64,000 nucleotides of DNA from Flavobacterium sp. NG2 (lineage in GTDB: Bacteria > Bacteroidota > Bacteroidia > Flavobacteriales > Flavobacteriaceae): contig NZ_CP139420.1 of the NCBI RefSeq assembly GCF_034119845.1, forward strand, positions 412,001 through 476,000. Reading direction: 5' to 3'. The first letter of the stretch is position 1. Each line of letters starts with the position of its first letter. The notes under the pieces are model-generated. The model saw only the letters and a program-made list of their open reading frames with translations, was not told the DNA's origin and made no database searches. Positions 12,271-23,715 of this stretch are shown piece by piece. A program made the translations under genes and the position numbers.

Positions 12271-12324
12271 AGGTACTATCTTTAAAACCTAATTTATTTT
12301 GATTAATTTTTCAATATATTTGTT

Positions 12325-13482
12325 TTAGCAGAGAGGAAGCATACTGCGATTTTTCGTTGAATGTTTACCTTGTTTAGCCTCAACTTGTTTGGGGCTAATT
12401 TTTTTATCCATTTTTGCGTTTGTGCCTTTTTCAAAGGCAAGCAGAGAAGAAAGCTCCTGTTCCTTTTCTTGAATATTTATTCGATAATTAGTATCGTATC
12501 GTTTATTTTTCTTCCACAAATGATAGACCATTACTAATAATTTTTTCTGTACCGCTACATAACTTTTCATTTTTATGGCGTGTTTTTCAAAAGTCCTATT
12601 ATACAAATCTAAAAACGGTTTTTCTTTACATGTTATAACTATTAAAGACGGCATATGAAGAGCTCTTCTTATTCTTGAATTCCCTTTTTTAGATATCTTA
12701 GTCTTTCCAACCCTAGTTCCTGATTGAGCTTCAACAACATCATAACCAGCATAAGAAACTAATTGCTTATAGTTTTTAAATAGCTCAAAACCATTAGTTT
12801 CTGCTATTAGAGTTGCTATAGTTAAGTATCCTATTCCTTTAATTGCCAAGATATTTAAGCATTTATTATAAACTACAGCATCAGATTTAAGATGTAATTT
12901 CATTTTTTTATCTAATTCTTTCAACTGAGCATCAAACAGAGTTATAGTGCTTTTAAGTTGATCAATCAATAAATCGGAACGATACATCGAGTGTTCTAAT
13001 GCATGGATTTGATTACTTATGACCGTTTTTAATTCTTGTATATTTTGATGCTGTCTGGTGTAGTGACGTAATTCATAATAGTAGCGTCCTAATGGCTCCC
13101 AAAGGCTTAAGCATTGTTCAGCTCCCATTTGTGCCAATCCTCTAGCGTCAATACTATCATTCTTAGATTTTAAACCCAAACATTCTAAGTATTTCTTTGC
13201 CTTATTAGGTAAAACTATAGATAGTTTATATCCTTTTTCAAATAAATATAACGCACAATTTTCATGATAGACACCTGTGGCTTCCATACAAACAACCAAA
13301 GGCAAATCCATCTCTTTATGCCATTTTGTTATCCAAGAGTCTAAACTTTCAAAACCAGAAACAGTGTTATTAAAGGTTATTTTAGACTTAAACTGAACTT
13401 GTTGGTTCTCATCAATGACACAAATTGATCCATCAATTTTGCTACTAGAAACATCTAATCCCACAGAATACTTTAAAATCAT
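12325..13482 (-). CDS. IS110-family transposase (DEDD serine recombinase)
   Basis: The 385-residue protein has the N-terminal RuvC-like DEDD domain with Asp10 (SVGLDVS), Glu67 (CMEATG), Asp109 and Asp112 (KNDSIDARG), and a C-terminal Transposase_20 domain (about 205-300) with IKGIGYLTIATLI, SYAGYDVVEAQSGTR and KISKKGNSRIRRAL. Ser254 in the SG motif is the likely nucleophile. A long helical linker (140-200) joins the two. IS110 enzymes excise a circular element and insert it at a site chosen by a bridge RNA encoded in the element. The protein is identical to that of copy 2 and appears intact. Confidence 0.95.
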   Translation of the reverse strand: MILKYSVGLDVSSSKIDGSICVIDENQQVQFKSKITFNNTVSGFESLDSWITKWHKEMDLPLVVCMEATGVYHENCALYLFEKGYKLSIVLPNKAKKYLECLGLKSKNDSIDARGLAQMGAEQCLSLWEPLGRYYYELRHYTRQHQNIQELKTVISNQIHALEHSMYRSDLLIDQLKSTITLFDAQLKELDKKMKLHLKSDAVVYNKCLNILAIKGIGYLTIATLIAETNGFELFKNYKQLVSYAGYDVVEAQSGTRVGKTKISKKGNSRIRRALHMPSLIVITCKEKPFLDLYNRTFEKHAIKMKSYVAVQKKLLVMVYHLWKKNKRYDTNYRINIQEKEQELSSLLAFEKGTNAKMDKKISPKQVEAKQGKHSTKNRSMLPLC

Positions 13483-13517
13483 AACTTTTTGATTTTTAGA
13501 TAAACAAAAAACTACAT

Positions 13518-13674
13518 GGGTCTTGGCTCATTAGTTATACTGCATCTAAATTAAAAACCTAGTGCTTAAGTACTATTGCGACTTGAAATGTAATTAAAAT
13601 GAAGTTGATTAACCTAGCTTACAATATCGTATTAAACGTATCTGGCCCCGATAGAATTTTGCAACTTCATTTTG
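13518..13674 (-). ncRNA. Predicted bridge RNA of IS110 copy 1
   Basis: This is the same non-coding left-end sequence as in copy 2 (22289-22445), read on the minus strand. The 10-mer CTATCGGGGC lies at 13645-13654 inside the loop of the 12-bp AAAATGAAGTTG stem. The flanking target of this copy reads CAATCGGGGCT, eight matching bases up to the core plus one mismatch. Confidence 0.6.
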
Positions 13675-13738
13675 TTTATCAATTATTACTATTTTAAAGA
13701 TACGTATTTTATCATTTTGTAACTATAACAAAGATATG

Positions 13739-13842
13739 AGCCCCGATTGCAGTGATATCCTCTTGTGGAGCTTGCGGAACAAGAGATATAACGGAAAGCG
13801 GGACGAGGCGTTCTTGTAAAACGAATTTATTCTGCTCCTAAT
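13739..13842 (+). repeat. Dispersed AGCCCCGAT...GCTCCTAA repeat, IS110 target
   Basis: The element starts AGCCCCGAT, has an internal palindrome around CTCTTGTGGAGCTTGCGGAA, a GGAAAGCGGGACGAGG segment, and ends CTGCTCCTAA. Relatives lie at 22143-22224 (inverted), 42731-42890 and 56050-56143. IS110 copy 1 joins its AG end precisely. It ends 2 bp before the stop codon of the peptidase gene. Confidence 0.75.
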
Positions 13843-22142: not shown

Positions 22143-22224
22143 GGAGCTGTTTCCCGCTATACGCTACAATCTTGTGGCGGCATAAATGCCCGCCGCCACA
22201 AGGATTTCCGCTGCTATCGGGGCT
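22143..22224 (-). repeat. Dispersed AGCCCCGAT repeat, target of IS110 copy 2
   Basis: On the minus strand it reads AGCCCCGATAGCAGCGGAAA, then CCTTGTGGCGGCGGGC paired with GCCGCCACAAG, then AGCGGGAAACAGCTCC. The IS110 element begins directly after its CTATCGGGGCT end (22214-22224 on the plus strand). The stem of about 18 bp in the middle makes it a strong palindrome. Confidence 0.8.
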
Positions 22225-22288
22225 CATATCTTTGTTATAGTTACAAAATGATAAAATACGTATCTTTAAAATAGTAATAATTGATAAA

Positions 22289-22445
22289 CAAAATGAAGTT
22301 GCAAAATTCTATCGGGGCCAGATACGTTTAATACGATATTGTAAGCTAGGTTAATCAACTTCATTTTAATTACATTTCAAGTCGCAATAGTACTTAAGCA
22401 CTAGGTTTTTAATTTAGATGCAGTATAACTAATGAGCCAAGACCC
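22289..22445 (+). ncRNA. Predicted bridge RNA of IS110 copy 2
   Basis: The non-coding left end holds a perfect 12-bp stem, AAAATGAAGTTG (22290-22301) with CAACTTCATTTT (22356-22367). Its 5' loop side holds CTATCGGGGC (22309-22318), identical to the target at 22214-22223; the 3' side holds TAG (22347-22349), complementary to the CTA across the core. A second hairpin (TACTTAAGCACTA with TAGATGCAGTA, 22391-22425) is preceded by ATAGTAC (22387-22393), matching the seven bases before the core at the right end (23684-23690). It is followed by ATGAG (22432-22436), complementary to CTCAT at the left junction. This matches the two-loop bridge RNA plan described for IS621; the exact ends are guessed. 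Confidence 0.65.
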
Positions 22446-22480
22446 ATGTAGTTTTTTGTTTATCTAAAAATCAAAAAGTT

Positions 22481-23638
22481 ATGATTTTAAAGTATTCTGT
22501 GGGATTAGATGTTTCTAGTAGCAAAATTGATGGATCAATTTGTGTCATTGATGAGAACCAACAAGTTCAGTTTAAGTCTAAAATAACCTTTAACAACACT
22601 GTTTCTGGTTTTGAAAGTTTAGACTCTTGGATAACAAAATGGCATAAAGAGATGGATTTGCCTTTGGTTGTTTGTATGGAAGCCACAGGTGTCTATCATG
22701 AAAATTGTGCGTTATATTTATTTGAAAAAGGATATAAACTATCTATAGTTTTACCTAATAAGGCAAAGAAATACTTAGAATGTTTGGGTTTAAAATCTAA
22801 GAATGATAGTATTGACGCTAGAGGATTGGCACAAATGGGAGCTGAACAATGCTTAAGCCTTTGGGAGCCATTAGGACGCTACTATTATGAATTACGTCAC
22901 TACACCAGACAGCATCAAAATATACAAGAATTAAAAACGGTCATAAGTAATCAAATCCATGCATTAGAACACTCGATGTATCGTTCCGATTTATTGATTG
23001 ATCAACTTAAAAGCACTATAACTCTGTTTGATGCTCAGTTGAAAGAATTAGATAAAAAAATGAAATTACATCTTAAATCTGATGCTGTAGTTTATAATAA
23101 ATGCTTAAATATCTTGGCAATTAAAGGAATAGGATACTTAACTATAGCAACTCTAATAGCAGAAACTAATGGTTTTGAGCTATTTAAAAACTATAAGCAA
23201 TTAGTTTCTTATGCTGGTTATGATGTTGTTGAAGCTCAATCAGGAACTAGGGTTGGAAAGACTAAGATATCTAAAAAAGGGAATTCAAGAATAAGAAGAG
23301 CTCTTCATATGCCGTCTTTAATAGTTATAACATGTAAAGAAAAACCGTTTTTAGATTTGTATAATAGGACTTTTGAAAAACACGCCATAAAAATGAAAAG
23401 TTATGTAGCGGTACAGAAAAAATTATTAGTAATGGTCTATCATTTGTGGAAGAAAAATAAACGATACGATACTAATTATCGAATAAATATTCAAGAAAAG
23501 GAACAGGAGCTTTCTTCTCTGCTTGCCTTTGAAAAAGGCACAAACGCAAAAATGGATAAAAAAATTAGCCCCAAACAAGTTGAGGCTAAACAAGGTAAAC
23601 ATTCAACGAAAAATCGCAGTATGCTTCCTCTCTGCTAA
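22481..23638 (+). CDS. IS110-family transposase (DEDD serine recombinase)
   Basis: This copy of the 385-residue transposase is identical in protein sequence to that at 12325-13482, with Asp10, Glu67, Asp109 and Asp112 forming the RuvC-like site and Ser254 the probable nucleophile in the C-terminal domain. It starts at the ATG 256 bp into the element, behind the predicted bridge RNA, as in the IS110 subgroup with a long left end. It ends 54 bp before the element's right end. No frameshift or stop is seen, so it should be active. Confidence 0.95.
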   Translation: MILKYSVGLDVSSSKIDGSICVIDENQQVQFKSKITFNNTVSGFESLDSWITKWHKEMDLPLVVCMEATGVYHENCALYLFEKGYKLSIVLPNKAKKYLECLGLKSKNDSIDARGLAQMGAEQCLSLWEPLGRYYYELRHYTRQHQNIQELKTVISNQIHALEHSMYRSDLLIDQLKSTITLFDAQLKELDKKMKLHLKSDAVVYNKCLNILAIKGIGYLTIATLIAETNGFELFKNYKQLVSYAGYDVVEAQSGTRVGKTKISKKGNSRIRRALHMPSLIVITCKEKPFLDLYNRTFEKHAIKMKSYVAVQKKLLVMVYHLWKKNKRYDTNYRINIQEKEQELSSLLAFEKGTNAKMDKKISPKQVEAKQGKHSTKNRSMLPLC

Positions 23639-23715
23639 AACAAATATATTGAAAAATTAATCAAAATAAATTAGGTTTTAAAGATAGTACCTAGAAAACC
23701 TGCAATAACACAATA

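Follow-up and report, generated by a model that had tools for sequence, protein, structure and literature searches.

The window analysed here, a stretch of 64,000 nucleotides from Flavobacterium sp. NG2 (contig NZ_CP139420.1, positions 412,001 to 476,000), contains a mobile IS110-group element that very probably (about 94%) works like IS621, with the edge of the dispersed repeat Flavo-1 as its RNA-guided target. The element ends, the guides, a conserved RNA fold, the covariation of guides with insertion sites and one handshake base can all be read directly in the sequences compared. The initial annotation had proposed an IS110 element with a putative IS621-type bridge RNA, and both the conserved fold and the guide-site covariation support that proposal. 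Below, individual loci (elements or Flavo-1 copies) carry L-numbers; G000 is the window's own genome and other G-numbers are other genomes.

The element occupies positions 22225-23692 on the forward strand (1468 bp counting one CT core), and its ends are common to the five full copies in the genome. Compared with the window copy, two of the others are identical, one has 1 difference and one has 6. The copy with 1 difference also lies in the window, inverted at 12271-13739, with its predicted bridge RNA at 13497-13683, and it is likewise inserted at an ATCGGGG edge of Flavo-1 (the repeat at G000:C1:425735-425809). This second copy was absent from the initial annotation, as were the right target guide and the outer stem of the RNA. 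The CT cores of the first copy are at 22223-22224 and 23691-23692. Three paralogous sites without an insertion (L079, L080 and L168) agree with the joined flanks of the copy L005 at 35 of 40 bases and have a single CT; they therefore fix the ends of the element and leave no room for a longer target duplication. Scarless insertion at a short core, as characterises the IS110 group, is thus seen from paralogous unoccupied sites. The Flavo-1 copies L079 and L080 and the L005 site have about 40 bases of flank beyond the repeat in common, and L168 matches this shared flank as far as compared; some Flavo-1 copies seem, from these flanks, to have spread as longer units.

The noncoding left end is 256 nt long (22225-22480) and the right end 54 nt (23639-23692), an asymmetry typical of the IS110 group, and the predicted RNA region (22280-22466) lies in the longer, left end, as that group requires. 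Three left-end remnants of the element or a relative were found in the genome, at G000:C1:319249 (L007), 2831504 (L141) and 4109162 (L006). L007 and L141 lie directly at edge motifs of the Flavo-1 type (CATCAGGGC/T and ATCGGGGC/A, respectively), and L141 adjoins a Flavo-1 match among those listed. A search of plasmids for relatives returned only 10 records, under 60% identity.

The one ORF of the element (22481-23638, forward strand) encodes a recombinase of 385 aa with both IS110 domains (PF01548 and PF02371), which scores 192.7 bits against the NCBIfam model of IS110 RNA-guided transposases, NF033542 (cut-off 140). The only solved relatives found were ISCro4 (PDB 9t56, E 3.5e-31) and IS621 (8wt6, E 4.3e-28). 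Residues D10, E67, D109, D112 and S264 fall opposite D, E, D, D and S in the alignment with ISCro4, and are the predicted equivalents of the IS621 catalytic residues named in the available text of PMC11208158. The protein has the DEDD RuvC-like domain and the Transposase_20 domain with its conserved serine that are diagnostic of the IS110 group. In L027, L037 and L044 the recombinase frame contains stops or frame breaks, yet in the alignment these elements retain the bridge RNA fold.

The predicted bridge RNA core is 187 nt long (22280-22466, forward strand). Absence of a conserved fold among homologues had been named in the initial annotation as an outcome that would speak against a bridge RNA; the fold proved to be conserved, with compensatory changes, over 20 elements. 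These elements, the window included, make up alignment A1, which was built without structure and from which L012 was omitted as a near-duplicate of L046. Five helices are supported. The outer stem pairs 22283-22289 with 22458-22464. Inside it the target-loop stem pairs 22290-22301 with 22356-22367, a 12-bp perfect inverted repeat that had been noted earlier and is confirmed on reading the window, with changes on both sides in 7 of its 12 pairs. A hairpin with a bulged A at 22336 stands between the two target guides (22321-22340; 99.3% of cells paired). The donor loop (22381-22443) has a stem at 22381-22383/22441-22443 and an inner hairpin at 22398-22421 with a bulged A at 22418, in which 3/3 and 9/9 pairs, respectively, changed on both sides. 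Each of the two loops thus has the order expected of a bridge RNA, namely stem, left guide, stem-loop and right guide.

Overall, 94.7% of 756 cells in A1 are paired, and both sides have changed in 27 of the 38 pairs. When the partners are shifted by 1-3 columns as a control on A1, pairing falls to 40-53%. Among the 14 closer sequences 96.4% of cells are paired, and four of five fold measures were above all shuffles; the fifth, further pair types, was not (299/500). The window sequence served for drawing the structure, which therefore leans towards the window. A covariance model, R1, built from the 14 closer sequences gives 198 bits for the window, which is itself in the model, and recovers 7/7 held-out relatives of more than 50% identity (L012, L046, L026, L034, L035, L036 and L039) at 75-122 bits and 4/8 relatives of 37-40% identity (L017, L018, L021 and L023) at 52-53 bits; L013-L016 and L038 were missed. 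Elsewhere in the window, the second copy aside, the best R1 score is 16 bits, and on the elements' own reverse strand it is 19.7 bits. Folding of the RNA region as a single sequence is modest (z -1.77).

The guides of the window element can be assigned to both target and donor. The left target guide, CTATCGGGGC at 22309-22318, is identical to the ten bases at 22214-22223, as was noticed earlier; its last C reads the core, and the left target CTATCGGGG with the core CT occupies 22214-22224. The right target guide, CTAG at 22346-22349, is complementary to the core CT and right target AG at 23691-23694. The left donor guide ATAGTAC (22387-22393) equals 23684-23690, just before the right-end CT core, and the right donor guide ATGAG (22432-22436) is complementary to CTCAT at the left junction (22223-22227). 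The initial annotation held that guides could be assigned directly; it had the left target guide and both donor guides right and overlooked the right target guide. In mononucleotide shuffles, no left end (256 nt) matched the target flank over 10 bases (0/2000), and a perfect stem of at least 12 was seen in 9/500; a match of at least 8 to the right-end tip arose in 313/2000, and ATGAG was present in 366/2000 shuffles of 22300-22480. On the single sequence, therefore, only the target guide, and to a fair degree the stem, stand out; matches such as those of the donor guides are common in shuffles, and the donor guides rest on comparison with relatives. They are nearly invariant there, with one matched change, T to C in both guide and end of L012 and L046 (one lineage), so that comparison tests them weakly.

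Target guides were compared with insertion sites in the relatives, reading the guides from alignment columns and counting one row per element. For these and the handshake counts the own copies L001, L002, L004 and L005 and the duplicate L045 were dropped; left and right guide counts with these rows restored were likewise not reached by shuffles. L011, L020 and L041 are the same loci as L032, L033 and L028 and were omitted, L031 is without a left flank, L026, L029, L030 and L039 are without a right end, and the relatives of about 40% identity (L013-L018, L021 and L023) and L038 are in no guide count. The left guide matched the left target at 130/180 positions in 20 elements (shuffled pairings: mean 65.9, maximum 103), and the right guide matched the right target beyond the core at 50/85 positions in 17 elements (mean 23.2, maximum 40), each against 20,000 shuffles that ignore relatedness, with several of the rows grouped by the protein tree. 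In 15 elements chosen for different left guides, among which L034 and L035 still share a guide, 84/120 positions matched and the shuffle maximum was 66.

Target guides thus covary with the target, as expected of bridge RNAs, with L029, L034 and L042 (left) and L035 (right) as exceptions. The window's left guide is found at 10 sites (the five own copies, and L027, L030, L043, L044 and L045 elsewhere), nine of which read ATCGGGG and the remaining one, an own copy, ATCAGGG. Other guides go with other sites. In L028 left guide and flank are both GCTACGG, and the right guide reads CTGTTA, the site being CTGTTA; in L036 left guide and flank are both TTGCAAA, and right guide and site both CTACAC. In L034 right guide and site are both CTTGAAC, with 5/5 right-flank bases beyond the core fitting. 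Weak matches on the left are those of L034 (2/9), L029 and L042 (4/9 each) and L032, L033, L035 and L039 (5/9), and on the right those of L035 (0/5) and L043 (1/5). The initial annotation had suggested comparing relatives that carry other loops with their own insertion sites, and had taken an unchanged loop at other sequences as evidence against guiding; most relatives lie at matching sites, and the one case noticed of the latter kind is L034 and L035, which have the last 8 left-guide bases in common and different left flanks. The right flanks of L035 and L037 begin CTCATAT, like the element's own left tip, and do not fit the right target guide. Joined copies were considered as the source of this flank in both, and dropped for L037 because CA follows the core in 6/82 unoccupied Flavo-1 edges.

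The donor loop would also take part in target matching. Its handshake base, C at 22437, pairs with the last base, G, of the left target, as described for IS621 in section 11 of PMC11208158, where a donor-loop base pairs with target position 7. This base complements the last left-target base in 19/20 elements (shuffle maximum 17), the exception being L037, in which the site departs from its own guide at that position. A second handshake position (target position 6) pairs in just 6/20 elements. The target-loop handshake base, G at 22350, pairs with the last base C of the left donor; it is G in 20/20 elements and, being invariant, gives no covariation.

The element is inserted at the edge of Flavo-1. 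The initial annotation described the target as a dispersed palindromic repeat, which is Rfam RF01705, Flavo-1; the match covers 22146-22228 on the reverse strand (74.2 bits, gathering 42), its last 4 bases being the element's own. At least 112 matches are present in the genome, at least 103 of them over the cut-off, from 150 of 1180 first-look candidates scored. Four of the 112 are occupied, nine under the cut-off were left out, and the other 99 were fetched. The right edge of these 99 unoccupied copies reads ATCAGGG in 41, ATCGGGG in 16, ATCTGGG in 9, GTCAGGG in 8 and otherwise in 25; in 14 of the 99 no edge could be recognised (fewer than 7/9 bases). All five own copies of the element have ATC(G/A)GGG directly 5' of the CT core. 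The minority edge ATCGGGG, which the window's loop spells, is used by 4/5 own copies against 16/99 unoccupied repeats (Fisher p = 0.0046); leaving out L001, beside which no Flavo-1 lies among the scored matches, the proportion is 3/4 (about p 0.02, by hand), and leaving out the 14 edgeless copies it is 4/5 against 16/85 (about p 0.008, by hand). AG after CT, found in 3/5 own copies and 37/82 unoccupied edges, is not distinguishable between the two. A genome count of ATCGGGGCTA (11 sites, 9 inside listed Flavo-1 matches) was set aside; the sequence reads the same backwards, which makes its built-in reversed control useless. By eye, the ends of Flavo-1 covary in the copies L059-L098 (CCTG/CAGG, CCAG/CTGG, CCCG/CGGG), and the central hairpin varies widely between them.

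Both edges of Flavo-1 appear to be used by relatives. Guides reading the right edge were found in 7 of 21 elements (window, L027, L030, L037, L043, L044 and L010). Rfam places Flavo-1 above the cut-off at the insertions of the window, L027 and L043, and below the cut-off of 42 at those of L030 and L010 (38.9 and 37.3 bits); L037 and L044 were assigned by the edge motif alone. Guides of 4 of 21 elements (L031, L032, L033 and L040) were assigned to the left edge. Their right-guide heptamers are present at the left edge of the 99 Flavo-1 copies of the window's genome in 22 (L031), 21 (L032) and 3 (L033) cases; the other fourteen guides gave 0 for thirteen, L040 included, and 1 for L026, and the guide of L042, taken at 6 bases, matched 14/99 left-edge zones, so that this test is not free of chance matches. 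At L040 the joined flanks form, by eye, a whole Flavo-1 interrupted at its left edge, where Rfam did not report the repeat. L032 has a Flavo-1 match at the right junction (48.3 bits); in L031 the left flank is missing and the right flank fits the guide at 2/5 bases. The ideal site of L032 and L033, GTCRGGCTATAC, occurs six times in their genome and four times in the window's (reversed control 0), and two of these four lie where listed Flavo-1 matches start.

This pattern bears on whether the recombinase itself, and not an RNA, recognises the edge of Flavo-1, the loop sequence being incidental, which we judge to be very unlikely. Related proteins do share targets, in that the right-edge elements come together on the protein tree (one change; weak support, 61/14), and the shared left guide of L034 and L035 at different flanks would also fit such recognition. 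Yet L030 and L037 are sisters on the tree (100/100), and their loops and sites differ together (CTATCGGGG in the former; in the latter, left guide and flank are both CTATCGCG). The left-edge label needs two changes on the tree, and L040 is placed among the right-edge rows but has left-edge guides and a left-edge site. Moreover, two separated loop segments and the donor-loop handshake base all track the site.

Two relatives read a different repeated target. L012 and L046 (51% identical) are inserted at the 3' end of an apparent group II intron, of which domains V and VI score just under the Rfam cut-off of 40 (35.8 and 39.7 bits, respectively). Their target, GCCGTCTA/CT/CGATTA, lies inside domain VI, and their right guide, CTCGATTAC, which reads the intron 3' end, agrees with the site over 8 bases in L012 and 9 bases in L046. 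The uninterrupted 16-mer of this intron site is present in 35 of 299 genomes (reversed control 0), and five times in the window's own genome. Eight such loci were examined; the intron model recognises two of them at E <0.001, each with a score below the model's cut-off, and the remaining ones have the domain VI tail in common, by eye.

Both targets, Flavo-1 and the end of the group II intron, are structured repeats, as would be expected if hairpin-forming repeats as such were targeted and the loop match were a by-product. Such targeting by structure is less likely still: within Flavo-1 it is the minority edge ATCGGGG that is preferred, and relatives lie at loop-matching sites such as GCTACGG/CTGTTA or TTGCAAA/CTACAC. 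That the loop is a copy of the target captured by recombination, and not a guide, would agree with the identity of left guide and site over 10 bases, but can practically be dismissed: the right guide complements the right target instead of copying it (over 8 bases in L012 and 9 in L046), and it lies across a conserved hairpin from the left guide.

We favour, then, an element that works like IS621, and we infer transcription, RNA binding, catalysis and a promoter for it as follows. The recombinase would bind the bridge RNA from the left end. The target loop would pair with both strands of the target, CTATCGGGG/CT/AG at the right edge of Flavo-1, and the donor loop with the element's own joined ends, ATAGTAC/CT/CAT. 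The excised circle would be inserted by strand exchange at the CT core; it would then have a CT at each end, and the Flavo-1 repeat would stay almost intact. In the circle, a -33-like box from the right end and a -7 box from the left end would be brought together, so that the guide RNA would be made mainly after excision.

The candidate -33-like box of this junction promoter is TTAG at 23671-23674, which joining of the ends would place 20 nt upstream of the -7 box. The -33 consensus is TTTG. Among 16 elements with both ends, the joined right end has TTTG in 4, TTAG in 9 and CTTG in 3 at this distance, counted without a shuffle control, so that just 4/16 match the consensus. The putative -7 box is TATCTTTG at 22227-22234 (forward strand), a match to the TAnnTTTG consensus given in PMC9723704. 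All 16 elements carry TATCTTTG (11) or TATCTTTA (5), i.e. TATCTTT(G/A), in the left end. These boxes would fit a promoter of Bacteroidota type that excision creates. Within the left end there is also a second TATCTTTA, at 22261-22268, from which transcription could proceed without excision.

Flavo-1 itself is widespread, being found in at least 92 of the 101 genomes of the genus sample with at most 41 candidates scored per genome. A RAYT (Y1 transposase) was considered as its mobiliser and rejected, as neither adjacency nor strict co-occurrence, as in RAYT-mobilised REPs, was seen: Y1_Tnp is present in 61/101 genomes, G003, G004, G019 and G030, for example, have at least 41 scored Flavo-1 matches and no Y1_Tnp, and none of the four Y1_Tnp genes of the window's genome has a Flavo-1 within 1.9 kb among the matches listed. 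In the literature, Flavo-1 was reported as a computed motif in PMC2864571, matches in sense or antisense in transcribed regions with unclear function were described in PMC9723704, and PMC9029176 listed it among abundant small RNAs; no function is given in the available text of these three papers, and the association with IS110 elements is the first concrete biological one found for Flavo-1 in the literature searched.

Comparison with IS621 (available text of PMC11208160 and PMC11208158) shows a common DEDD recombinase with C-terminal serine, a predicted bridge RNA in the longer left end, the same order of stem, left guide, stem-loop and right guide in both loops and a bulged A in each inner hairpin (the last two from PMC11208158 section 7). 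The CT core, the handshake base, a promoter joined in the circle (putative here) and a palindromic repeat as target are also shared. The two differ in that their proteins are only distantly alike (E 4.3e-28 to 8wt6), the target here is Flavo-1 whereas that of IS621 is a REP, the promoter boxes here look Bacteroidota-type and not sigma-70, and the donor here is ATAGTAC/CT/CAT. ISCro4 (9t56) is the closest solved recombinase by sequence (E 3.5e-31) and was compared by its structure entry only. Insertion of IS110 elements into REP repeats was already described in 2003-2006 (PMC1525189). According to the sections of that paper available, the copies of ISPpu9, ISPpu10 and ISPa11 all lie in dispersed repeats (7/7, 7/7 and 6/6), as here; theirs are proteobacterial REPs, and guides were then unrecognised. 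With the seekRNA elements (IS1111/IS110, PMC11187229, as far as available) the element shares selection of the site by an RNA from the noncoding region, but the IS1111-type ones have subterminal inverted repeats and their RNA in the right end (PMC11208160 section 12).

The mechanism is therefore known IS621 biology, published in 2024 with repeats as targets included (PMC11208160 and PMC11208158, available text), and the element is a well-supported further member. What seems to be new is Flavo-1 as a shared landing pad together with a series of naturally retargeted guides for a single repeat. Our literature search found no report of an IS110 element in Flavobacterium repeats, including in the available text of PMC5395568, nor of Flavo-1 as an IS110 landing pad in the literature searchable here.

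We consider it somewhat more probable than otherwise that Flavo-1 serves, if only in part, as a landing pad in DNA for a Bacteroidota clade of elements with bridge RNAs. Its edges appear to be read by the guides of 11 of the 21 elements examined (7 right, 4 left), so that the repeat would record natural reprogramming of bridge RNAs; two further relatives appear to have guides for the group II intron 3' end, in domain VI. The rules of bridge RNAs derived from IS621, including the handshake base, can be tested independently on these elements, which come from another phylum. The naturally retargeted guide sets on one repeat, for its right edge, its left edge and edge variants, are the material needed to ask in what way natural bridge RNAs acquire new targets, and whether the target loop and the donor-loop handshake base must change together.
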